This document shows, one piece after another, positions 4,575 to 21,342 of a DNA stretch of 64,000 nt (its first letter is position 1; each line of letters starts with the position of its first letter). This DNA is from Ceratodon purpureus. Lineage: Eukaryota; Streptophyta; Bryopsida; Pseudoditrichales; Ditrichaceae. The translations under genes were made by a program, and so were the position numbers. Under the pieces are notes generated by a model. That model was not told the DNA's origin, did no database searches, and saw only the letters and a list, made by a program, of their open reading frames with translations. The stretch is taken from the NCBI GenBank assembly GCA_014871385.1, contig CM026433.1, forward strand, positions 13,342,023 through 13,406,022. Direction: 5' to 3'.

Positions 4575-4875
4575 CACGGGGCCGACAGTGTGGGCGCGAG
4601 CAGGTTGGGCGCGCGCAGGCTGCTACGGGCGCGAGCATGTTACGGGCGCGGGCGACCCTGATTGGGCGACGGTAATCGGGCGCGATCACCGCGCGCGCGC
4701 GAGACTGACGACGGGCGCGATCACAGCAAGCGCGCGACGGGCGCGGGCGACCCTGGTCGGGCGAGGGTAATCGGGCGCGATCACCGCGCGCGCGCGAGAC
4801 TGACGACGGGCGCGAACAGCCACAAATGACCGGCGCGAACAGGCGCAAAGACGCGCGCGGACACGACGACGGGCG
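4575..4875. repeat. GGGCGCG-rich array upstream of promoter B
   Basis: About 300 bases of the same GGGCGCG/GCGCGCGCGAGA words as the array at 3557-3930. It contains an internal near-duplicate, with segments around 4670-4720 and 4765-4815 both reading gggtaatcgggcgcgatca-like. It is placed directly upstream of module B. Confidence 0.75.
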
Positions 4876-5144: not shown

Positions 5145-5830
5145 CCTTAGCAAATCTTTCACAATAGAGAACCAATCCAAGATGTCATTGTTTCCTTCCT
5201 AAAGCCCTAAAGAAGAATGCCATATCAATAAAGATTTGATCAGCAATTGCGTTAGATAAAATCATAAAGAGATTCTTATCTTTGTCTTGGAACTGCCTGG
5301 CTATAAAAAAAAACAATTCTTTTACAACTAATGCATACACTCCAAAGAGGCAAGCATATTACTAAGGAATCCTTGTTGGATGTTAAACATTATCTTTCAA
5401 GTTGAAGATCTACTTCTGTGAAATGCCAAAGGTATTCACCTTCAAAGTAGTAAAAAATGGCATTGACAAAGCAATCCATGGCTTGAGTTGGAAACTTGCA
5501 GAACTCTCTTTTAGACGGCAATAAGTTAGCGGTTGTGTCAACATCACCAAAAGATATCATCCTAATTGCCAATGATTGTGGCATTGTGCACATGACAACT
5601 TCAGTCTTCTTAGTTCTCAAGTCGTTACATTTTTGAACAAAGTAAAAATCAAATGCTTTAACAGAGTCTATGATTCTCAAAATAATTCTCTACACATCTT
5701 AAATCGACAACAAAACTCGACATAGTCAAGAATAAGAGTAGGAGCAAAGTAGTCTCTAATCAAGTATTCATGCCAAAGTTTCCTATCTTTGTACACAAAT
5801 TATGTCTTTTCTATGCAGCTATCTCTTCTT
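5145..5830 (-). pseudogene. Decayed PIF/Harbinger transposase (ALP1-like nuclease)
   Basis: Minus-strand translation in shifting frames recovers the typical order of a plant PIF/Harbinger nuclease: WHEYLIRDYFAPT, then MRIIDSVKAFDFYFVQK, QSLAIRMISFGD, QAMDCFVNAIFYYFEGEYL, GFLSNMLASLECMH (first catalytic Asp region, with Asp changed to Glu), QFQDKDKNLFMIL and NDILDWFSIVKDLLR. Frame changes occur near 5683 (one base missing) and near 5390. There is a premature stop after TEVDLQLER, and the C-terminal part is absent. It is a dead copy. It lies about 360 bases left of the 15-kb transposon and is unrelated to it. Confidence 0.8.
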
Positions 5831-6191
5831 GGCCTTAAACTAATCTTTTCAACAGATTCACTTAAATCTTGGTTGATTGTTGCAAGAAAATACTCCTGCC
5901 CCTCGTCATTGGAATATCAAATGCTTGTTGAATAGTGCTCACAAGTTGAGCTAAGATTTGGAGACACAATAATAGCTCTATAGAAGCTCTATCCGGCTCC
6001 CTCGATTTGCTAAAAAGACTAGAAGACAAGAAGATAAGGAAAGGGTCATATTTTGAAACCGCCAATGTGGCAAGCACTATTTGTTCCCCTCACTTTATTT
6101 TTCTTAAAATTCAATTCTTAAGAAACTTTTCCTTACCAATACATAATATCAACACAATGTTGATTGGTCCAATAAGACACTCATGCTTCTT
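5831..6191. other. AT-rich spacer
   Basis: No gene is supported. This is flanking sequence immediately left of the 15-kb transposon insertion. Confidence 0.5.
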
Positions 6192-6195
6192 ATTA
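6192..6195. repeat. Target-site duplication, left (ATTA)
   Basis: ATTA directly precedes the left inverted repeat. The same ATTA follows the right inverted repeat at 21339-21342. Confidence 0.8.
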
Positions 6196-6215
6196 GGGTG
6201 TTGGCAAGCTACGCC
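6196..6215 (+). repeat. Left terminal inverted repeat of the 15-kb transposon
   Basis: GGGTGTTGGCAAGCTACGCC. It matches the inverted right end except at position 18 (G versus A). Confidence 0.9.
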
Positions 6216-7062
6216 TATGGAAAAAGTATGTCAGAAAAGTACTTTTTCCAAAGTACCCTTGACAAAGTACATGTTTTCTATAGGAAATTAACGTAATTCT
6301 GAGCTGTTTATTATGAAATTAGGGTCGACCACTGCTATGCTGTGTTGTTTAATGTCAGAAATTAAAAGAAAATGATTAGGCACCTCTGTATAAAGTACTT
6401 TTCCAACTTATTAAAGTACGTCAGATTGTAGAAATCTCGACAAAGTACTTAATTTCTTGCAACTCGAGTTTTGTATTACTGTGATTTTATTGCAGGGAAT
6501 GTGGCTTGTTTGTCGCTACAGATCTCAATAAAAAAAGGAACCAAAAAATGAAAATCCGTGGAAAAATTGGATGTGGTGGGAATTTTTTTTCTGCAGTCCA
6601 AAAGTCTACGAAAAAATGGGCGCACGATTGATTCGCCTATGCAGGCGGCGTTCCTAACGTATGCTCTTTGTTGGCTAACGGCTGGATATTCTATAAAATC
6701 TGTTTTTTGTGGACTTTAGGATTTCATGCGGCCGCCACTAAGAGTACTATGCGGGTTACTTTCCAGATTCAGAAGTACTCAAAGTACTTCGTAGTGTAAT
6801 CTCCACCGTCCAATTCCGATGCCTTTGTATCTCAGCCGTACACGTCATGATAAGATCCGAATATATTGGATCTGGGCTGTTTGAGTTCCGGTGAAGTTTC
6901 TGTCCATTCATACTACGGATGATATATCTTTTTTTCTATTCATCTACTTGTGGGTGGTCTTGCATGCGCACAGGCGCATGCAAGGATTCTCAACGTCGTC
7001 TCTCTTTTCCCTTAGTGTTCCAGGCGGTGTGAGGTGCGGCGCTGCAAGGGTTTGCAACACCA
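6216..7062 (+). promoter_or_regulatory. Subterminal repeat region and transposase 5' region
   Basis: Six AAAGTAC words lie between about 6235 and 6450, several as palindromic AAGTACTT, with more at about 6745-6800. No coding frame is supported. By analogy with CACTA-type elements these could be binding sites for an element-encoded protein, and the region should also hold the transposase promoter. Confidence 0.55.
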
Positions 7063-10000
7063 ATGTCTGGGGAAGGCTGTCCCTACAACCCAGCATTAGT
7101 TCAGTCTCTAATAACGTCGTACTATGGAGTTAGAGAACCTCCTCAGCTTGTCCAACAGCGAATTACTAACTACTACCCAAGGAGTGATGGTGTCGATGAG
7201 GAGATTCAGAGTGTAGATCAAACGTTTACTGCCCCTTCATGCTATAGTCCGGATGATGATGTGTCAAGCAGCTCGCACATTTCCGGTACACCAACTTCGA
7301 GGCTTGGAGATATTGCATGGTACCTCCATAGTGGAAACCAAGCCGTACATGCCCGTGAGTGTCTTGTCCGGAACTCGAAGACCCTGTTTGGATCCGAGCT
7401 CACTGAAGAGGCACTGTCACCTGAGGAGCTCAACCAATACGCATCCCCGACCCCTTCCAGTGCGCACTTGGTGAGTTTTGCTTTCCTTATCATTCAGTTT
7501 CTAAGCTTCGAAGTTTTATGTTACTGTTTTGATTCGAAGTTTTTGCTGCTGTAGACAACATGTTCCACATGTTGACAAATGTTTGTGCTCGTAGGTTCAC
7601 GACATGGCTCTTTGCAGACTCTATTATCCCAGACTGTCTCCTCCTTCTCTAACCGCGTAGTCTCTCCTTGTTGGTGTTCGCGGCTCTTGACGGGCATTTG
7701 TAGGATGGGCGACAAAACCCGGACACAGAGGTCCAGAACGCGACGGCCTGGTCCTGCGGAGAGGGCGGCGCTAATGGAATCGGCAGAGGCTGCACGGTTA
7801 GAGAAAGCGGAGCGCAATCGTGTGTACCAGCAACGCCATCGAGAGAAGTCTTCGGTGCGTTCGGAAGGAGGGGAGGAGATATCGACGAGGGACACAGCCA
7901 CTGATGAAGTCGACTACATTTCGCCTAGGGATGCATCCAGAGTTGCTCAGAAGATTGTGACGAGCATATCTCATGAGCTCAATGCTCTCCCTGGACCACA
8001 GTGTCGACAGTCTGTGTTTGAGAAGGTTCTGCGCCATAATCAAGTTTCGCCTCTCTTACCCTACTACTACCCTCGTCATTTAGAGGCAAAAAGTATCCAC
8101 TACTTGATTCAAAGTTTTAGAGCTGAGTTACATTCTCTATCTATACCATTTTCGAACAACATGTTAGTTAGAAAAGGTGCCTTGTTAGATGCTGCTGTGA
8201 ATGGCAGTGTAGGTGGTGTTAGGGCGCTTGCACGTGTTTTAGGAACTAAACCTGAAAATATTCAAGCCGCCTTGGAAAGGAGAGAAGAATACGAAGAGGG
8301 AGCTCCACGGTTTGTACCACTACGCAGGCAGAAACGAATTGACACTACAACAAGTTACACAATTGAGTCAGTCAAAGCATGGTGGCACGGTCAGACTAGA
8401 GTCAGCCCGAACAGGAAGGACGTGGTCAACAAAGGCGGTGGTGTGAAAAGGGGAGGAGAGACGCATGCGAAGCACTACTTGACTGTCACACTGGTATGGA
8501 TTCAGTACAACACTCGATTTAATTGCTTGACCACATCTATGCTAAGTATTGCCGTGTCACTTTGCTTGTCATATAGTACTTCAGATACTGTAAATCTCCT
8601 TGTGCAATACTCTTTTGATGTCCGAGTTTAAAATTATGTTACTTTTTGACTTGAACTAGTAGTACCCGTGGTAGAGTGTGTATTACCATTGCTCAAAGTG
8701 TATCACGTGAAGTACATTATCATAGAGATATTTTACCTGCACTGGATATGAGGTACTTCAAGGTATAATTTACCTCTCACATTAGAGTACCATCAGTACT
8801 TGAACCACTTCGTATTGTTGTCATTTTACTTTTTTTCTCAAACTATGTACTCTCGTTTAGTACTCACTGATGAAGGGTACTTCGAAGAGGTATGTGAAAC
8901 ATACTGTAGTACTCGCAGTGTGTCGGAGTAGTCCCATTTGTACATTGTATCAGTCCGTCCATTCCAAAATGTATTTCGAGGGTCATGGTGATGAGTACCG
9001 AAACTAGTTTCAAATGATGCATACTACTTCGGAGTAGTACCTTAGCATCTACTGTAGTACTTTTAGTGCTTTGGCGTAGTGATAGTTTGTACTTTGTATT
9101 AGTACATCCATTTCGAACTGTACTTTGAGGATCAAGTTGCAACGGTACTGTAGTACCACTAATACTTGTCTTCGGTGGCTTGTTGTAGGCGACCTTCTTT
9201 TTGCAATTCAAAGAGGCTCACCCGGAGTGCAAGATAGGACAGCGAAGCTTCGATAACCTCAAGCCCTGGTATGTGAAACCTCTAAGGGACCGTAATGTCT
9301 GCTGCTGTATCTACCACGTAGAAATGGATCTCATGAGGGTAGGACTGAACACTCTACGGGAGGAAAAGAGGGGACTGCATGCACAACAGGGTTGCTCCTG
9401 TAGATGTGTTGTTTGTTCTACTGTCTCAGAGGGTGCATCGGGTGCTAATGTGGGCTGTGATGCTCATCACAGTACATACAAAAGAATCACCCTACTTTGG
9501 GAAGCTTGTCTTTGTCCAAAATCTGAGTTTGATGAATGGCACAAACTGAGCTGTATAATGGGTGACTGTGAGAACTGTGGGGTAGAAACTATGAAGCTTT
9601 GTCCACAGGAGTTGTCTGACGCTGAGGAGCCGAAGCTACGTTGGAAGCAGTTCTCCTACGTTCAGATTGGGATGGATCGGGAGACTGGGAAACCGAAAAA
9701 ACGTTTGCAGGAAGTGTATCAGGAAACAAGTCCAGTCCAGTTCATCAACTACATGAAGCCGAAGGTGGAGGCTTTCATAAAGCACAACTTTATTGCCAAT
9801 TGGCAAGATGCTCAGTGCAAGGAAATGATGGAAGGTTTGCCTGAGGGAGTTTTAGTTTCCCACATCGATTTTGCAGAGAACTATGAATTCCAGATTCAAA
9901 ACGAAGTCCAGAGCATGTACTATATGTCTGAGTATGTATCCTTGTTGGTTCACATCACTTTGCAGAGAGTCCGTGATGTGAGTGGTGATTTGATCACCAT

Positions 10001-11413
10001 AAAACATACACACTACTATATATCGGATGACAAGAAACATGACTCATTGTTTGTTCAGCATTGTTTGATGCTTCACTGGAGGTGGTTAAATGCTAACGGT
10101 CAAAGACCAGTGGAGCATTGGGTTTTTAGTGACGGATGTGCAGGGCAATTCAAGGGTGCAACTGCTATGTATTTTGTTGCGAGGTACCCGAGTCTCACCG
10201 GTGGCTGCTCCATGATTTGGAATTATTTTGCGACGGGTCACGGAAAAGGTACTTCGCGTAGTTTTTAAGTTAAGTCTAATACTTTTAGTACTTAAAAGTA
10301 CACTGCTCCCTACTGTACTCTAGAACGCCCAGTGAATAAAATGCCACATTATAGAATAGGCTGATGGTTTGATGTCATATATAATGCGGTCTGAAATCTC
10401 TGGTTGCTTGAATTTGCAGGGGAATGGGATGGCGCAGGGGCAGTAGTGAAGCGTGCGTTACGAATGGAGCAAATCCGCAACCCAGATCGGCAGTTGCAGA
10501 ACGCTCTACAGTGCGTCGAGTTTTTGCAACAGGGCTTCTCCACTCGGGCGACTTCTTCCTACGCTGGGACAAGTAGTAGAGATATTCACCGTACCTTTTG
10601 GCACGTTGGGGAGCACGAAATCAACAGGGAGTCATCAATGGCTTGCAACACCATTGGAGGCTCGAGATCACTGCATTCAATTATGGGGAATTCGATCACT
10701 AACAAGACTGTCTTGTTAGTGAGACAACTTTCCTGTTTTTGTAGGGCATGCATAGAGAAGGATTGGGAGAACTGTGAGCAACAGGCACATGTTACTCGGT
10801 GGCGTGCAGTGCAACTTCAGCCAAAGACTCCAACTGAGGAGCCGGACCCCATTGAAGATGACCCAATGGAGCAGGTGATAATGAAATATTTATATGTTCA
10901 TCAAGAGTAATTAATTCCTTAGTCATGTTTTCCTAGTGTACAACATTAAGCATTGATGTTTAATTCTTTCCTTAATTTTGTCTACAAATTGCTGTTCAGG
11001 TTCAGCAAGGAGAGAGACTTGGTGATGTGCTCGACGTTGGAGACAACTTCGTGGTCCCGGCTGAGCAACCGAATGAGGAAGGAGTTGATTTTTATGTCTT
11101 GCAATGCCAACGTCGAAAATATCGATTACAGGCTCCATTGCAGTGTCCATGGGGTGCTGAATTCGAAGTAGGAGACTATGTTGTTGAGGGAACATATTAT
11201 AAAAAGGCAGGGCGAGGGGAATTTACTTACACTTACTTGGATAAGTCTGTGGTGGCTCATGTTGCTTCTCATCTAGTCATAGCATGCAAGTTCCGCATGA
11301 AACTGGCTCCATACTGTTTGAAAGGTGGAGATCCAGTTTACAAAATTTCGTCAGAAGTTGTAGAGGTAGTTCGGCATGCTCTAGCTCAGTTGTGGGAAAA
11401 TGATGATGACTAA
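7063..11413 (+). CDS. DDE-type transposase of the 15-kb element, five exons
   Basis: Exons 7063-7470, 7618-8493, 9189-10248, 10420-10874 and 11000-11413 join in consistent phase to 1070 aa with no stops. Residues about 170-250 are a basic helix (RLEKAERNRVYQQRHREK). A cysteine-rich segment (NVCCCIYHVEM; CSCRCVVC; CENCG) follows near 465-560. The catalytic core contains HIDFAENYEF (Asp about 655), ISDDKKHDSLFVQHC, FSDGCAGQFKG (Asp about 743) and HGKGEWDGAGAVVKR (Asp about 785, across the exon 3/4 junction). This three-block pattern is known to me from many uncharacterised plant and animal proteins considered transposases; I cannot name the superfamily with confidence. It is convergent with the RING-SET gene of the same element. 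Confidence 0.85.
8494..9188 (+). repeat. Transposase intron 2, dense in AGTAC words
   Basis: This intron (GTATGG donor, TTGTAG acceptor) carries about a dozen AGTAC/GTACT words, far denser than host DNA elsewhere in the window. The same words fill an intron of the RING-SET gene. Confidence 0.6.
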
Positions 11414-14400
11414 TACTTATAAGTATTATCATTTGCTTTGTGTTCAATATCTTCTTGACATTGCTTTGAGTTTAATGAGATTAAGTTTAGTCATGAGCTT
11501 TACCAAGTTAAATGATTCTGGACCCGGCTCATTTGTCCTTGAACCATTATGTTGTTGGATATTAAGAATGGACATGTGTGATTACTAAGTTACAAACACA
11601 GAAGCTGATCCGCATGCATATTCTCTTGGTTTATTAAGTGTATGCTGATTAACAGTATCCAATAGACGTTGTGTACAGCGGTTGCATGAACTCAACATCT
11701 CTCAAAAAGTAAGATGACTCTGTAGAAACCAGTATCAACTGAATATACAATACTACCTGAACCTACCACAATCTTGTTTAAAGAATCGAACAAAGGAACC
11801 ATGAATGATAAACATATCTGAAGAGGCGACACTTATGGAGTATAAGGAGTTTGAGTATAATGGACCATTAACCACTTTTTCAAATAGGAATGTCGTCCGA
11901 CAGTGATAGTGATTGTCCAATTCTGGAGAGCCTGACATCTCTCGAAAGAATCTCTGTATTTTTAATCCTGAACTGTCTTTTTCTAATATAGTGGGAAGTC
12001 TTTCCGTTGCCGCCTACTGATCCAACAAAAACGCTGAATTTCGACCGAATATAGACTTGCTTTTCACTGGGGTTTAGGGAGCAGCGCATTATACTATTCT
12101 TACATGCAACAGTAAATGCGTCCTGAGCTAAGAAAAGGATACGGATCTTGGGAAACAATGTACAATCATAAACAAATGCCTAACTCTGTCTCAATCACAA
12201 CAGAAAGGTATATAGAATGTAACTGTAGATTTGAAATAAATTATGAAGACCACTAACATAAAATATAATTTATGAGACAATAGTTAAAAAGGAATGAAAG
12301 TTAGACAAATTAATAGGTAGGAATATGAAATTAATAGGTAGGAATATGAATGTAAAGTGAAAGACGAATGAAATAAAAAGAAAAAACGAATAAATAAAAT
12401 AATTATAAAAGAAGTTCAATAACAAAAGATATAATGGAGTGATTTGGAAGGGAAGAAAATGAAGGAATTCAAGAATTATAATAGAAGATTATGAAATAAT
12501 CTGAAAGACAATTGAGGGAGAATGGTCGAGGGTCAAATTGAAAAAATAAAGGATTAAGAATGGAAGTTTAAAAAGAAAAAAAAAAGCGGTAGAATTAAAG
12601 GAAAACATAAAATTACAATAAAGGAGGTTTATAAAATTGAAAAACAAGAAAATAAAGAATGGAAGTATAAATTTAAAAAATAAAAAAATAAAAAAAAATT
12701 GTTTGAATAAGTAAGGAAGTTTTTTAGAATATAATAAAAAAATTAAAAAAAAACAAAGAAGAAATAATTGAAAAAATAAAGGAATAAGAATGGAAATTCA
12801 AAAAGAAAATAAAAGCGATAGAATTAAAGAAATACATAAAGTGACAATAAAGGAGGTTGCTTGAATTAAAAAATAGAAAATAAAGAATGAAAGTACAAAT
12901 AAAAATAAAAAATCAAGGAATAAGTAAGGAAGTTTTTGAAAATAAAAAATTAATAAAATTTTTAAAAATGGAAGAAGTAATTGAAAAAATAAAGTAAGAA
13001 GAATGGAAGTTTAGAATGAAAAATAAAAGCATTATGATTAGAAATAAAACGTAAAGGGAACAACAAAATTAAAAATCAATGGATAAGTAAGGATGTAGAA
13101 ATAAAATAATTGAGGAATAAGAAAGATATCCTTGAAATCTCAAAAGGAAGGGAATGGAAGAAACTATAATTGAATAAATAAAGAAATAAGAAGGGAAGTT
13201 TTTAATAAATTAAAACTAGTATGAGAATGGATAAAACTAATATATTAATAAATAAAGGAATTAGAATGGAATTAGAATTGATGTGAGTGAGAGTATCCAT
13301 TAAACATCAAATCCTAGAAATGACCATGCTTTTCATTACTTATACAAAGGAATTGACTAGAGCTTTACGTTTAACCAAAAAATATTGGGGACTGGTATTC
13401 AAAATGGTGTGTCTTTATGAAGGAAACATATTGGGAGAGGGGATAGGCATGTTTTTCACTTTGAATAAATTTAATGAAATAATTTAAAGTGTATGAATTT
13501 TGAAGCATGTGCATGATTAAACTTACCAAACATTGCAAGTATTAAATTTTAAATTTCAGTGGATACAATGCTATATTCCAAGTCAACACTGATACACTAT
13601 AGTTCTAAGATAAAGTCACTTGTAACCACAAGCCATGTTAGTAGCTCATAGGGAAATAATGAAATTTTAGAGTTATGTGGATGAAAATTGGGAGTAATAT
13701 GAATACGATTCGGTTTGCAAGACCAGTGACCACATCAATAATTACACATAATATTGAAAGCAATATTTATACTATGTTCATAACACTAACCAATTCTATG
13801 CTAGCTAGTTCTCCAAAACTAGGATCCTCTACGGTTACTGCTGCATACAGACCCTGTAGTGTTCAGCTTGAAAAGATGGATATGAGTATTTAGGATTGCA
13901 AAGCTTGAAGGGACACATGGTATACTTTATTAACGGCTAAATCTAGCGGGAGAAGCAGGAGCGGGAAGGTATGAGAGTGGAGGAAACTGTTTCTTTTTAG
14001 AGTTAAAGGTCCGAGCGGGACGGAATCAAGGGCGACCAAGTTCCCTCCAAAATGTGTCCGTTTGGAAACAAAACAGGATGATAGAGGAACGTCAAGTCTA
14101 TACCTTCACAATTGCAGACCCCTTCTGTTCCCTGGGGGCATTATTGCCTCAGAACTAGAACCTGGTCCAGTCCTAGGTACGCTTCTCTCTTAAATTTTTT
14201 GATTTCAGCTGCTACTTTACTTGTACCCGTTCCTCTTCAATGTACTCTGTTTATCGCTAGACTCAACTGACTGCTACCTTGGTTTTCCAGGAACCGGTTT
14301 TTGGATTGAGAATTCTTCTTCCATGAACAGTGCACTATAGGTGATATACTCTTCAACTTCAAGTGTACAGTGATGATTAGAGCGCAAGTCAATAGAGGTA

Positions 14401-14491
14401 AAGTCTCTCTAGAGTATAGTTCAGTAGATTTGAAATCAGTGTTTAATGTATTCTGATTCAAAATTAGTAAAGTACTATCTAGTTTTAGTGC
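11414..14491. other. Convergent intergenic region of the transposon
   Basis: Lies between the 3' ends of the transposase and the RING-SET gene. No gene is supported; the short frames at 13287-13487 and 13675-13893 have no recognisable features. It includes the purine-rich repeat tract listed separately, followed by about 500 bases of more normal composition before the RING-SET stop codon. Confidence 0.5.
12280..13280 (+). repeat. Purine-rich, diverged tandem repeat tract
   Basis: Plus-strand sequence is almost all A and G with few C. It contains recurring phrases such as aattgaaaaaataaagga, aagaatggaagtt and acaataaaggaggtt, which reappear about 240 bases apart (near 12535, 12765 and 12975). 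It looks like two to three decayed tandem copies. Confidence 0.6.
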
Positions 14492-17400
14492 TTACTTGCG
14501 GCGCCTGACTGGTTTCTTGAATGCTTTTCTCTGCTGTTTATTTCTAATGCTCCTTCTTAGCAACCTGGATGGCTTTTCTAGTGTAGTATTCTTCGGCTTC
14601 TCCCCTTGTGACTGTAGTGATGTCTGGTTCCCCTTGTCCCGGCACTTGCTACTCCCACAGGCGCATCTAAAGCCCGGTATATCTCCATCATCGGACTTGA
14701 AATCCTCGCCATAGTCCTACCACACCCGGATCAGTGAGTTAGTCATACACTCTTTATTCCTTTAGTTTTAGAAATTGTAGATTAATGAATTCAAACTTGG
14801 TCCAGAGAGTCAGCGTCTCAAGTTCGATTCAGGGTACTTACCCATGTCAACTCTTCTCCTGGGTAGATGTCACGATTGGCAAAGAATGCCACATGGTAGA
14901 TACGCTCATCTCCGGAGTGCACTTGCGCAGGCATATCGACGACGTTAGCTCCCTCGCACCTGAAACAGCGGCAACAGAAAATATCCTAGTAAGAACCAGT
15001 ACTAGACCTTAGGCACTCTACTTTACTTTACATAAAACAGTTAGAGCTAGGACAGTCCATGCCTGTGATTTAGAAATCTTGCAACATTTCCATAGTGGGT
15101 GGCATCGATACAGAGGGAGTTGTTGTCATTGGCCATTACTTCAGACCGCCAAGAAGCATCCAGTTGGAGAGTGTAGGTTTGGCGAAAACCAAGTATCTTG
15201 TGCACCAGGTGGTTTCGCTCAATGAGTTCATCGTTAGTCACAATCTCCCCGGCGAGTTCAAATAGAAACTTACCCGCCTTGATATGCTCCACTGTCCGGA
15301 CACCCCAGCCGCGAGAAGGAGTCCTAAAAATCTGTCCAATTAAAATTACATGTTAGAAAATGTGAATATTAAAAATCCCTATTTGGTAATTAAAATGACA
15401 TTTGTCTAATTCTGGACAAGCCTTACCTGTACCTTCACCGTCATGCCATGCTGAATAATGCGGTTCCCACACTTTAAGTGGCAAGCACACATGGAGTTAC
15501 ATTCTGTGATAAAGGTTCGGGGTTGGTGACCATGACAAACGCCATCGTCCCCGCTACTACTATCTTCAGTAGGCAGGCTCGCACAATAACAACCGGTTCC
15601 TTTATTACAAAATTCCAAAGGAATTTTGTCATCCAACTTTTTAATGACGTCAGCCCGAAGTAGACCACCAGTGTCGTACGCGAATTCCCCGGCTTGTAGG
15701 GCGCACGCGCAACCAAATTTTCCAGAAATAAGGCAATTTGTACCGCATCCTGAACAACCTGCTCTCGGTCTGAAGGACCCTCTAACACTCTTCCACAAGT
15801 CGCCACCATTAGGCTCTTCAACAAGCACCATGCTCTCTTTAGTGTACCAGAAATTAGGTGAATTAATGTGATATCCAGTAGGACAGACCACTTGCACAGG
15901 ATTCCGCTCCAAACCATAGGAAATATCTTGAACCAATATATTATCCTGTTTTGACAAGGCAGGTGAGATCAGCAATCCAAATGGAAAACTTGTGTGCGAG
16001 CTCAGACGTTTTTGCAATTGATGGAATACATACGAAAATGTATTCTACGATAAGTAACAGTAGACCCAAAAGAGCCCACGTATGTATGTCTCACATGAGA
16101 AAACAGAGTTTACAATGTTTTTCTGCACCCACTCTAATCTGCCTACACAATCTAACACAACCCTGCAGATTCGCACTACATCAGTTAGTTAGAGGACTCC
16201 AAAACAACCTTCACCGCTTTTAGCTTCTTTCCAGTAGGGCTCCCTCCTCGACCTGCAACTTCGGGGACGCTACGTAGAGTGGGGGTCTCATTTTTCTTTC
16301 TCTTGCCTGATTTTTTTTCCCCAACCCTCTCTATCACATTGTCCTTCTTTTGTTTCCTGGTCTTGGATTTCCCTTGGGATGCCTGCTCCACGCCTTCCAC
16401 TAAGTGTTGGTCATCTCCGGCATCTAGCGATCTTCTGCTAGCCCGAGTCCTCACAGCTGGCCCTTGATCCGTGGCATCTACTCTTCCCATTTTTTGTCCT
16501 TCCAACTCGTCTTGGAGTCTTTTCCCCTCCTCGGACTTCCTCTTCCCTCGATGCTGTTTCACCTCACGACGGTGCTCGACCATGGTGGCCCCTTCATCTC
16601 CCTCTGCCATCTTCTTCGTTGTCAATCCTTCAAGCCCTCCCTGTGTATCCTGACTCTCGGAAGTCAACGGCTTCCCCTGTAGAGGGCAGTCCCGTTCCTT
16701 GTCGGCGGTCAGCTCCGTGGCCATGTTGGACTGGACTAGCGCCGTCCAAGGCCTACCCCAAATCTCCATGCTCTCTTGATCGGGCTCCACCTCCTGCCCC
16801 TCATCAAATCCCTCCTCTATGCCTGGAAGCTTCACTACCTCAACAACCCCCCCTGCCTTCCCCTTAGTTTCCCCCTCTCCTTCGACTTCACTGTCCAATT
16901 CCATATCACTCTCCCTCTTTTCCCCACCCGGCTCTCTAACCCCCTCACATCCCGCCCCTCGTTCTTCATCTAGGTCAATTGTGGACACATTCACACGTGG
17001 GATATCCACGCCCGCTAGGTCGTGAGCTCTCAATTGCTGAACCGGAGGATTCACTAAACCCCCTTCCCTAAACCTCTTCTCCACCTCTAACTTTCTACTG
17101 TTCTCCCCCTGAAGTTCTTCTTGTACTATGTCCTCTAACTCACATCTCTGGCCACTGTTTCCATCGTCTTCTTCATCCTGACTCTCCTCGCTGTCGCTGT
17201 CGCTGCCACTGCCACTATCAGTAGTCCCTGAGCTCGATTTAAAATCTGGGACATTACCTGCAAAATTCCACCATCACAATTAGTCACATGAATACACTAT
17301 GGAACGGTTATGCACTGTCCGACCTTCTGAACCGTATGTTATATTTCGACTACAGTAAGGATTATTAAGCTACCAGAAGTTAGGCACAAGATTGAAATGG

Positions 17401-20400
17401 CATACCTCCAGATTCAGAGTCTTCCTCATCTGAGTCGTCGTTCAACTCCGGCTCCATCGCCTTTGACTTCCTGCTCGAATCCTCGACAAGACATTCATAA
17501 ACTCTCTGTGGAGGTAGTTGCGCCTTTGTCTCGCGTTTTTTTCCATCAACTCTCCCTTGCTTCCCCCCAGACTGTTTTGGTGCCACAGTTTTATTTTGTG
17601 GACTGTCTACTACCGTCTTCCTGTTTTCCTCCTCTCTGATCTGGAACAGACTGCTAGTTAAAGTTTCTCCCACAGCCGAGTCCCCTAACCGCGTTGAACA
17701 AACCGCTTGGCTCTGTTCTCCAAAACTTGCAACTCCGTGAGAAAGGGTAGACATGGGCTTCAATGACGAGTCTGCAAACACAACGTACAAAAAGATTTAA
17801 AAGAGAATATAAAAGTACATCAGTATACTATAAGTACTTCTAAGAGTGCGAGAGATAGTAATAGTACATTATTATCTAGCAAACCTCGACTATTGCCCAC
17901 TACGAACTGCTACATTATACTTTTTTGAGTAGCGTATAGTACTACTGTGTGACCTAAGTACTATTAGTACTGAAACACGTAAGTACTTAGAGTACCGATC
18001 GACCTAGGTGTATTATACTTTTAGTACTAACAGAATACATTTACAAAAAAGTACTACGTAGGATCTAGCTAAAATTTCTAAATGAATAAACAATGTACTT
18101 CATAAACACCATGTAAATCAAAACATACATATTACAGTAGTATTCAATGTACACCAACAATCTGAAAAAACCAAGAAGTATGTGGAAGTACACATAATTC
18201 CGAACAGAATACAAAAAGTACACAAAGCATAGAAACAGAAAACGACTTCGATTACAAAAAGTACAAACGGTAGAGGGGAATGTATTCTTCCTTGATACTC
18301 TGCAAGACAAGTAGTGCTGATCAGAAACTCTAGATTCGACAATTAAGTACCAAGTTCACTAAGGGGTACAGCTAGTTAATTCCACTAATACAAAATGGAA
18401 TGATAGTACAGTGACCTGAACGTCTCGAAGTAGATGAAGTCCTACCAGAAGTATCACGAAACAACAAGCCACGATGAAAACAAATATTCAGCACTGCTAT
18501 GTACTCACCTGTGTTCGGACATCGAAGACGTGCTCGTTCAGCTCGCTCTGAAAGTAAACGTGCCACCTCCTCGTCACATATCGTCATCTGGGCAGCTACA
18601 TCTTCAACAACAACACTCCCTGGACCTCCCCACCCAAAGCTACGATGCCAATCTGGATCTACAAGCTTATCACTACAATTCGATGCAGCACATTTGTAAC
18701 CACTCTCATAGGTCACCTTAGCGCAGAAAGGGTGGTACATGTGCTTACAAGATGCAATGACAATGTCACTTTTAGGAAAGTTAAAACCGCAAAGGGCACA
18801 TTTAGTGATTTTTAGGAACCTCTTTTCGGGAGAATCATCCTCTCCAAACGCACTGTCAGGGTACACGAGTGGAACTGGATTGAGGGAAGCCGTGTTTCTT
18901 CCATACTTGATGCGTTCTATCTCGACCTTCACCCCTTCGCACATCCGAATCTTCTGCTCCCTTAGCCTCCGACATTCTGCTGCTCCTAGGTCTTTCAGTA
19001 GCGCCTCGGTTTCCTTAGTTGCTAGAGTACGCTTTTGATCCTCCAGGAGCTCTGCCAAAACATTCCGCTTCCCTTCGTTTCCACAATGCTCCACGTCACT
19101 GCTTTGTAGTGAAGCCAGATTAGCTTCATAGGATTCCACCATTAGAAGCGCAAGTCTCTTATCCTGCGCAGCTGAGTCCTTGGCTTTCACCGCCAACTCC
19201 TCGTCCATCTTCAGACCTTCTATCTCCATCAAAAGTATCGTGTGCATCGTCTGGAAATACTCCAGTTTGGACATCGAAGCTATTCCGCGATCTTCGACCT
19301 TCACCGAATTTACCGCCAATTCACCCTTCAGTCCCACCTTCCAATTCGTCTGCGCACTGTTCGGTGGCGGGACACCTCTCCTCTACAAGTACAGTAACAT
19401 TTCATTGTACCACATTGTTAAAACCAAACAAAGCTTTCAGATAATAAATCACATCTACAGATGAAATGAATGCAATAACACTACACCTAACACTCTATCT
19501 CTCTAACATTCTATCTAACTAACTCTGACACACCAACTGATATTATTAAGTAATACCACATTGTTAACACTAAACAGAGCATACAAATGATATGTTACGT
19601 CTAGACTTAATCTAAAAGCAAACGTACTACACCTATACATCAAAAAAGTATATCATCACATTACAATGCAGTGCCTTACGACTGAATTTACAATGCTAAG
19701 TCTGAAAGTACTGATCGGTTTTGCAATGCTAAGTATACAAACAAAGAAATTGGAGAAATAGTAATCAATAACAGAAACAACTCGAAACAGTAATACAGAC
19801 AACCCTAATCATAAAGACAAACAATTCTAATCAAACAAACAAACAGATTACCAGAACGTAGGAGGTATACGTACCTTTGTTGGCGTTGCAGCATCGGCTC
19901 CAACACAGGGCTCCAACTTAACCGCAACATCGACTTTCAAACTCCTCCAACTGCGCTTCGTCACCCTGGCCCCTGTGTTGATCGCAAACTGAAGCTTCGA
20001 CAGATCCTGCTCATACTTTCTTCGTTGGTGATGGTTAGTCTCTTGACCATACAGAGCCCAATTCACCGCATTCTTCTGGTACTCCAAAACGATGCCGACC
20101 GCGAACTGCTTCGTGACACACCTAGGGATCTCATCGGCTCCGTGCTGGTACACAATTGGGTGCATGTATCTGATGCGGTTGACAATTTCCCGCACCTTGC
20201 AATCGCTCCAAGAGTACCCTCCACGACCCTTAACCCCCTCGGGTCTAAACCCTAACTCTTGCATCTGTTTGTCTGAGATATCCTTATCTTTGCGACATCT
20301 ATGCGGGTTGATAGAGTTAGGGCTACACTCCAAATCGTATCTATCGCGGAAGTCCTCCCAGGTTAACAAATCCGGAGGGGATTTCAAGCTTGCTATCAAC

Positions 20401-20585
20401 TCCTCCAAATCATCGACTTCCAGGAAACGCTCCTCCTCCTTCACCGAAACCCCTACCACCTCACTTCCCCCCGACTTAGTCTTCCCGATTTTCACTCCCA
20501 TTCCATCAACTCCCGACTTCACCTTTCCATCCCGAGAACTTGATTTCAGACCTTCGCCCCCCCCGGACTTGGACCTCCTAGACAT
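14492..20585 (-). CDS. RING-like / SUVR4-type SET histone methyltransferase fusion, eight exons
   Basis: Exons from the 5' end: 20585-19875, 19382-18509, 17771-17406, 17257-16209, 15945-15427, 15331-15063, 14959-14842, 14716-14492. Phases fit at every junction, giving 1376 aa without stops. Residues 1-237 are an N-terminal domain and about 250-400 a coiled coil. A RING-like finger lies at about 432-475 (CALC ... SCKHMYHPFC ... KCAASNC), and about 530-1000 is an acidic then Lys-rich disordered linker. Pre-SET cysteines span about 1060-1165 (CSGCGTNC, FGCAC, CHGH, CNSMCACHLKCGNR). The SET domain spans about 1174-1306 (GWGVRT, NVARFLNHRC, ELTWDYG) and post-SET is RCACGSSKCR. NHRC and ELTWDY are typical of plant SUVR1/2/4, H3K9 methyltransferases; catalytic residues look intact. 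The SUVR N-terminal WIYLD domain is absent. Intron 6 appears to use a GC donor. Confidence 0.85.
17772..18508 (-). repeat. RING-SET intron 2, dense in AGTAC words
   Basis: This intron lies between the RING exon (donor ACACAG|GTGAGTAC) and the acidic linker exon (acceptor TTTGCAG). It contains more than a dozen AGTAC/GTACT words. Its phase-1 boundaries match on both sides, which is the key evidence that the RING and SET parts belong to one transcript. Confidence 0.6.
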
Positions 20586-21318
20586 TGCTAACACACGACA
20601 CGAATAAGACCGCAACCAAAACCTACTAGTCCAAGCTAAAACTTGAAAACAAAAATCCACCCTAAACCCTAGACCAGCAGCGAAACCATATCGTTAACAG
20701 TCGCAATAAACGGAAACCTCGGAGGCACATAATGATCTAACCCTTAAACCTGAAACCCTCAATCCCCATCTGAACTAGCGCAAGAATTACAATGCTCCTC
20801 TCCAACACTCAAAGACCCTAACAGACCGCAAAAATGCCAAAAACTACGACAACAAAGTGAACCTTAAACTCATCTTAGCGTATCTCAAACTCAAACCCTC
20901 TAACTCTCTATCTGTCTGTCTCAGTCTAAAACTCTAACCCTCTATCTCAACAAACCCAAGACAAATAACACATACACTCCTCTCCGAACTGCAAAGTACT
21001 AAGTAAGATCCTAAACCACATTACACCAACAAGAGAGACAGCAACGCCGAGACCAGCAAACACCGAACAGTGAACACCAACGAGACCAGAGTGACGTTCG
21101 ATGTGCGAGACGAAGACTACCGGCTATAGAAGGTAGCACCCAATCCAGGTACCTACAACCACCGGTCAGATGCTGTCTCATTGGTCGATCTGAGCTTGGG
21201 TGCCGGTGGCACGCGGCGATGATATGGACGGCTCAGATTACTCCAAAAAAGTACATCGATTACATCTGAGTATAAATGTACCCGGAAAGTACTTCGGTAA
21301 TTTGCCCAAAGTGTACCC
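20586..21318 (-). promoter_or_regulatory. 5' region of the RING-SET gene and right subterminal region
   Basis: No coding sequence is supported. The frame upstream of the ATG at 20585 stays open to 20660, so a slightly longer N-terminus is possible. AGTAC words lie near 20995, 21245 and 21285, close to the right end. Confidence 0.5.
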
Positions 21319-21338
21319 GGTGTAGCTTGCCAACACCC
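21319..21338 (-). repeat. Right terminal inverted repeat of the 15-kb transposon
   Basis: Inverted match to 6196-6215 at 19 of 20 bases. Confidence 0.9.
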
Positions 21339-21342
21339 ATTA
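21339..21342. repeat. Target-site duplication, right (ATTA)
   Basis: ATTA directly follows the right inverted repeat and matches 6192-6195. Confidence 0.8.

Follow-up and report, generated by a model that had tools for sequence, protein, structure and literature searches.

Can a DNA transposon keep, as a standing gene of its own, an enzyme of the class that its host uses for silencing? Hosts silence transposons through H3K9 methylation, and the question is raised by a 64,000-bp stretch of the genome of the moss Ceratodon purpureus (C13:13342023-13406022 of an assembly of 362,488,568 bp; hereafter the window), in which a 15,143-bp element bounded by terminal inverted repeats (TIRs) spans positions 6196-21338. 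The element carries a transposase gene on the forward strand and, convergent to it on the reverse strand, a RING-like frame and a SET gene of the SUVR type (Table 1). We suggest, with a probability of about 0.6, that the element, an autonomous cut-and-paste transposon, belongs to a large moss group that has the SET as a standing gene, and that it may encode a self-marking RING-SET writer. The parts of this reading differ in strength. That the SET gene is an integral, selected cargo is close to certain; an H3K9-type activity of its product is fairly probable, judging by its sequence, and self-marking as the main role is put forward tentatively.

The two TIRs are identical at 19 of 20 bases and are each adjoined by ATTA, as described in an earlier account made from the letters alone (the sequence-only reading); they have no further match within the window at up to 3 mismatches, and two matches were reached in 0 of 100 shuffles. 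The earlier account also took both genes for parts of one mobile unit, which the rest of the genome bears out. Searching with the TIR at up to 3 mismatches gave 99 matches, against 11 for a reversed control pattern, and ten further copies with convergent ends were taken from the genome. All align on both the transposase and the RING-SET sides; both genes are present, whole or in part, in 10 of 10, and all four SET exons in 9 of 10, copy C6:70056426 having neither SET exon 2 nor transposase exon 3. Between the window element and the C2 copy there are 42 base differences and 2 gap columns across 15,145, and from this near-identity a SET-bearing unit has evidently moved recently.

Target-site duplications of 4 bp are perfect in 11 of the 15 pairs of ends checked, window included, and vary in sequence (CCAA, TCAA, ATAT, TTGC, ACTA, TCAT, CGTA, TACA, CACA, ATAG, ATTA). 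Two pairs agree at three of the four bases, and two show no duplication, namely a 19-kb pair on C3 (L007/L008) and a 47-kb pair at C6:64386245 (L029/L030), which are probably mispaired or composite. Empty sites were sought with the joined flanks of the ten copies, one duplication being kept. The best 40 of 1748 candidates were scored, and all came from copy C6:45295413, with at least 40 contiguous matches of 195-201 bp at 97-99% identity; this copy is inserted in a dispersed repeat, the intact copies of which are its empty sites. For the window's own insertion no empty site was found, as its joined flanks match their own two flanks alone. Inverted repeats and a target duplication, together with empty sites for one copy, are the features of cut-and-paste TIR elements. 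The possibility that a transposase and a host SUVR gene lie side by side by chance was rejected on the strength of the ten further copies, the duplications, the empty site and the other families described below.

How regularly the SET gene lies inside was determined from the 67 TIR matches with at most 1 mismatch, the other 32 being left out. The SET query for the closer families was scored on the best 109 of 1004 candidates, with 73 first-exon rows used among 210 matches, and the transposase query on the best 50 of 2130; distance limits were 25 kb for right ends and transposases, 45 kb for left ends and 30 kb for the second family. Of the 36 right ends, at least 31 have a SET match in the same orientation on their inner side; in 28 cases the distance is 5.1-6.4 kb, and at one of the 31 (C6:78394200) the SET belongs to the next copy, 14 kb away. 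Inward of left ends it is found in at least 25 of 31 cases, 21 within 14 kb, and a convergent SET lies within 25 kb of at least 28 of 32 close transposase matches. Among the five right ends without a listed SET, one (C8:8383953) belongs to the pair of a deletion copy (C8:8360367-8367999; L055, L056). This copy is 99.4% identical to the window element and has lost element bases 5510-9576, and with them most of the SET gene and of the middle part between transposase and SET; 58 SET codons are left. The sequence-only reading had named copies with the same ends and no trace of SET as the finding that would speak against it. No such copy occurs among those read, the C8 copy included; the other four ends that lack a listed SET lie outside what was read.

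The association extends beyond the family of the window. A second family has right ends GGGTGAGAGTACACTACACC, with a listed SET at no fewer than 20 of 27 exact right ends (17 within 7 kb); two of its copies, 98.7% identical across 8.6 kb, were read for the RING and SET genes. The more distant L053 and L054 have the same convergent gene order as the window, with transposases 54-56% identical to that of the window over the C-terminal two thirds and 40-42% over the N-terminal part, SETs at about 40% identity (45-50% in the 11-sequence alignment described below) and a RING-like protein at 33-42%. Distant transposases of 56-58% identity have a convergent SET within 25 kb in at least 17 of 18 cases, one of them 18 kb off. 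In a family with ends GGGTGAAAGTACACTAGACC, 4-bp duplications are found in 4 of 6 pairs, and ends of this or nearly this sequence have a SET within 12 kb inward in at least 26 of 36 cases, either orientation being accepted in this family-5 count. A further search used the L054 SET; its best 150 of 721 candidates were scored, and 150 of 150 matched. Together with the 73 first-exon rows this gives at least 223 SET loci without overlap. Among these listed matches, C6 (110,524,308 bp) is over-represented, holding 148 of 223 loci in 30.5% of the genome. The sex chromosomes of Ceratodon purpureus each exceed 100 Mb, about 30% of a 360-Mb genome, according to the available part of PMC8000587. Further ends such as GGGTGTAGGCAAGCTACAAT and GGGTGATGGCAAACTGCACC recur among the 3-mismatch TIR matches and may mark more families.

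The SET frame is open through 4 predicted exons (376 aa) and gave Pfam matches to SET (3e-21) and Pre-SET (4e-11). Its best PDB matches are H3K9 enzymes, for example EHMT2, Clr4, SUVH6 and SUV39H2; EHMT1, DIM-5 and SETMAR are also among them. With the plant SUVR proteins (SUVR1-5, including SUVR4 and SUVR2) it has in common Pre-SET, SET and post-SET regions and the NHxC and DY motifs, and SRA had no match in the Pfam scan of the element proteins. It differs from them in being multi-copy and mobile, in lying behind a RING-like protein, and in the N-terminal WIYLD domain, which was not found in the same scan; the RING-like frame occupies the place of WIYLD in the element. The catalytic NHRC, GWG and EELTWDY motifs and the post-SET cysteines are retained in 11 of 11 aligned sequences, comprising seven copies of the window's family (family 1) with running frames, one sequence from each of three other families, and the host SUVR; for L051, L053, L054 and the host gene, exons were joined by eye.

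That host gene bears on where the SET came from. A genome search found one WIYLD locus, which is adjoined by SET exons and was taken as the host SUVR gene. A host locus for the SET gene without the element's ends was the second finding that the sequence-only reading had named as contrary to it. A single-copy SUVR gene does exist, yet its SET is only 39-46% identical to the element SETs, so that it is kin of the captured gene's ancestor and not the same gene. Both share the Pre-SET start D-(I/L)-S-x-G-x-E and the intron positions LQ/VF, NHR/C and LTW/DY (a slash marks the splice junction here and below), and the host gene has one extra intron without counterpart in the elements. Since three intron positions are shared, the SET was most likely captured from an SUVR gene as genomic DNA, with introns lost later in some families; the L053 and L054 SETs retain the middle one (NHR/C) alone. 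The GC donor of the second SET exon (15061-15062; a GC-AG intron) is retained in 10 of 10 copies holding that exon.

The sequence-only reading spoke of a complete RING-SET gene, and both frames are indeed open, the RING-like frame running for 1007 aa to a stop of its own and the SET frame beginning 239 bp beyond that stop. The SET has no start codon of its own 5' of its splice acceptor; 7 family-1 copies and family 2 conserve this acceptor. As no ATG precedes the conserved acceptor in the SET frame, a gene for SET alone, starting by itself, was rejected. RING and SET are likely to form one gene through a putative splice. An alignment of seven sequences has six conserved GT columns 5' of SET, and two of them are in the correct phase in all; the better in-phase donor reads (C/G)CG/GTGAA or CCA/GTGAA, and the fusion would be about 1374 aa long. 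The RING stop is conserved as well as this candidate donor, so that a RING-only form is possible: the unspliced product may be RING-only, and the spliced product the RING-SET protein. In families 1 and 2 the DNA of the final RING codons and the stop (CTCTAACTAACT, 16185-16200) hardly varies.

Ratios of nonsynonymous to synonymous substitution (dN/dS) were calculated by the NG86 method between frameshift-free copies (6 for SET, 3 for RING and 6 for transposase; one in-frame stop each in the C1 and C6c transposases was skipped), and they indicate selection on the protein. For SET the ratio is 0.22-0.35 in 12 of 15 pairs, for RING 0.19-0.20 in 3 of 3, and for the transposase 0.11-0.16 in 13 of 15, the other two being 0.28 and 0.59 with few changes. 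The deep SET pairs have synonymous divergence (dS) of 0.2-0.6, far above that of close copies. The SET frame is intact in 7 of 11 copies, namely 5 of 5 off C6 and 2 of 6 on C6, and our reading is that the element would need its SET gene while active and that copies decay afterwards. Stops counted in the first RING exon of the C5 copy are an extrapolation artefact, that exon being split by an insertion, which makes one RING case in the frame count uncertain. Between the window and the C4 copy, dS is 0.16 for the transposase, 0.27 for SET and 0.40 for RING, and the window and C1 are more even. Between some subfamilies, then, the transposase half of the element (6196-12300) is less diverged than the RING-SET half (13900-21338), which hints at exchange between lineages or uneven constraint.

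Several observations weigh against a self-marking RING-SET writer under selection. The RING match is weak (Pfam zf-RING_16, E 0.004, under the curated cut-off), and the splice that joins RING to SET is one that we infer from the sequence. Three close SET pairs have dN/dS of 0.66, 0.72 and 2.25, each including a C6 copy and few changes, and the choice of copies with running frames biases dN/dS downward. The transposase frame is intact in 4 of 11 copies, the RING frame in 3 of 11, and all three together in 2 of 11. The C8 copy shows that the element can persist without most of the SET gene, at least for a while. The SET introns are not rich in a GTAC motif that is dense elsewhere in the element (2.8 per kb). 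Finally, selection at the level of the element does not obviously favour self-silencing in trans.

Among the possible roles we nevertheless take self-marking as the most probable. The SET domain would then form the C-terminal portion of a RING-SET protein, and this protein would bind the chromatin of the element, perhaps through element motifs such as AGTACT. There it would write H3K9 methylation, setting the timing and strength of copy expression, and the gain for the element would be a controlled, less costly activity. The RING part could supply ubiquitin, and a RING ligase joined to an SUVR SET might then carry out ubiquitin-aided H3K9 methylation within a single protein, a view suggested by the reported change that ubiquitin binding causes in the SUVR4 product. 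In SUVR4 the WIYLD domain binds ubiquitin, and this reportedly helps to convert H3K9me1 to me3 (PMC4260354, available in part). The accessible text of PMC7218100 agrees on the ubiquitin effect in one place and has reversed wording in another; in its table, SUVR2 is entered among the proteins that deposit methylation. By contrast, PMC4260354 describes SUVR2 as acting in silencing by RNA-directed DNA methylation (RdDM) through association with remodellers, its methyltransferase activity being undetected. Because SUVR2 silences without detectable methyltransferase activity, SUVR proteins are not uniformly active.

This last point opens the strongest rival to self-marking, namely interference with the host SUVR machinery. 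An SUVR-like protein made by the element could act against silencing as a dominant competitor for the partners of host SUVR proteins (SNF2 remodellers, RdDM parts) or for their substrates, and if SUVR2 silences without detectable activity (PMC4260354), a mimic could compete with it. Other elements provide precedents: the silencing of plant Vandal elements is regulated by a protein that they encode themselves, and TET/JBP genes occur in fungal elements (PMC12730594, available in part). However, the catalytic motifs are retained in ten element sequences of four families, which a pure decoy would not need; dN/dS is low across the SET gene, and the host WIYLD domain was not found in the element proteins by the Pfam scan. 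We regard anti-silencing as doubtful.

The joint retention of both genes, in the same order over deep divergence, might instead reflect a cofactor of transposition, with RING-SET modifying the transposase or a histone site other than H3K9 during excision or integration, as proposed for SETMAR near breaks. SETMAR, a fusion of SET and transposase, is reported to dimethylate H3K36 and to have roles in repair (PMC4593633, available in part). The nearest solved relatives of the moss SET are, however, H3K9 enzymes, and the C8 copy exists without most of the SET, though it may be movable in trans or immobile; a cofactor role is unlikely. More improbable is a weapon or niche builder, which would either silence rivals or genes of the host or build up the heterochromatin, C6 included, in which the elements shelter. 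The 148 of 223 listed SET loci on C6 (110.5 of 362.5 Mb) would fit this, but any element would be expected to accumulate on a large contig that probably does not recombine, the C6 copies are more decayed, and there is no sign of targeting of other elements. Passive capture, in which a host SUVR fragment hitch-hikes without function, draws on the three introns shared with the host SUVR, which point to capture of genomic DNA, and on the fact that gene capture by plant DNA transposons is common, but it is strongly disfavoured by the presence of SET in several families with different ends, by the frame intact in 7 of 11 copies and by the low dN/dS of 12 of 15 pairs.

The sequence-only reading knew of no described DNA transposon of this kind. 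That is not borne out, since HarbingerS elements (Kojima and Jurka 2014, Repbase Reports) and MuDR elements of the oomycete Phytophthora, both SET-encoding, are cited in the accessible part of PMC12730594. The moss element is SET-encoding like HarbingerS, but its duplication is 4 bp, against 3, 2 or 0 bp for Harbinger and HarbingerS (PMC12730594). It differs from both oomycete groups in its host, in a transposase without a Pfam transposase match at E up to 1, and in its SET, which derives from an SUVR gene with which it shares introns and which follows a RING-like frame. MuDR/MULE elements have a MULE transposase domain and a duplication of 8-11 bp; the moss element shows no match to that domain and duplicates 4 bp. 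KDZ and Plavaka elements are likewise set apart by the absence of a domain match and by duplications of 8 bp (Zisupton) or 2-3 bp (PMC12730594). The fungal TET/JBP transposons (KDZ, Plavaka, hAT7, IS3EU, PHISTA) are also DNA transposons with a chromatin or DNA-modification gene, although theirs is an oxygenase acting on methylcytosine, as opposed to a histone methyltransferase-like SET, with other transposases and with duplications of 8 (Zisupton), 7, 6, 3 or 2 bp (PMC12730594). SETMAR (Metnase) also links a SET to a DNA transposase and is among the PDB matches of the moss SET, but it is a single domesticated primate fusion gene (PMC9062482, available in part), whereas the moss gene lies inside many mobile copies. 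No plant transposon of this kind was found in a literature search that ran without most subscription papers and apparently without Repbase Reports. These comparisons indicate that the capture of SET genes, for which oomycete elements are cited, also took place in a plant and there involved a different transposase lineage.

With a transposon group in which several families retain, under selection, an enzyme of the class of the host silencer, the control of silencing becomes testable in a sequenced moss. The boldest form of the proposal is rather unlikely: that a moss transposon group outside the described transposase families would encode a writer combining ubiquitin ligase and H3K9 methyltransferase, and that the element, not the host, would set the heterochromatin mark of its copies. 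If it were true, the listed SET loci, over 200 in number and most of them on the sex-chromosome-like C6, would make transposon-encoded enzymes a material source of heterochromatin.

The transposase reading frame is open through its 4 predicted exons, as the sequence-only reading had it. The label "DDE-type" given there comes from conserved D/D/E-D motifs (candidate catalytic residues D490, D578 and E618/D620), and database scans neither back nor contradict it: against Pfam, NCBIfam and PDB the protein gave no meaningful match, and no transposase model in Pfam appeared at E up to 1. Membership in Harbinger, MULE or KDZ was rejected for want of a Pfam transposase match and because of the other duplication length. 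The Sola superfamily makes 4-bp target duplications, a length that the moss element shares. A search of viral contigs found no conserved stretch.

The motif AGTACT occurs 24 times in the window's element, against about 3.6 in block shuffles, and never in coding exons. It is found 21-28 times in each of the eleven copies and 10-18 times in L051-L054, and is not enriched in the flanks within the window or at the host SUVR locus. GTAC is densest in two transposase introns and one RING intron, whereas the middle part, like the SET introns, is not rich in it. In the families read, AGTACT/GTAC motifs are enriched in introns 8494-9188, 10249-10419 and 17772-18508 and at both ends of the element. The motif thus links the RING and transposase genes as parts of one element and informs nothing about SET; that it is a binding site for an element protein is a guess.

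Table 1. Features of the element and its target site (window positions; exons are predicted and given in reading order).
Feature	Position	Strand	Details
Target-site duplication, left	6192-6195		ATTA
Left TIR	6196-6215	+	GGGTGTTGGCAAGCTACGCC
Small upstream open reading frame (ORF)	7063-7660	+	157 aa; exons 7063-7470, 7595-7660
Transposase gene	7705-11413	+	905 aa; exons 7705-8493, 9189-10248, 10420-10874, 11000-11413
Transposase intron 1	8494-9188	+	GTAC 28.8 per kb (2.46 per kb outside the element)
AT-rich variable middle part	11417-14489		Separates the two convergent genes
SUVR-type Pre-SET/SET/post-SET gene	14492-15945	-	Exons 15945-15427, 15331-15063, 14959-14842, 14716-14492
Putative RING-to-SET intron	15946-16214	-	Donor GCG/GTGAAG, acceptor AAACAG/G; from sequence
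RING-like/coiled-coil/acidic-basic ORF	16185-20585	-	Exons 20585-19875, 19382-18509, 17771-17406, 17257-16185
RING-gene intron	17772-18508	-	GTAC 27.1 per kb
Right TIR	21319-21338	-	GGGTGTTGGCAAGCTACACC
Target-site duplication, right	21339-21342		ATTA

The small ORF 5' of the transposase gave no significant match in the Pfam scan; it is open in 9 of 11 copies, with dN/dS mostly 0.4-0.8. To the left of the element, at 4591-4863, lie G+C-rich tandem repeats with several periods from 15 to 95.

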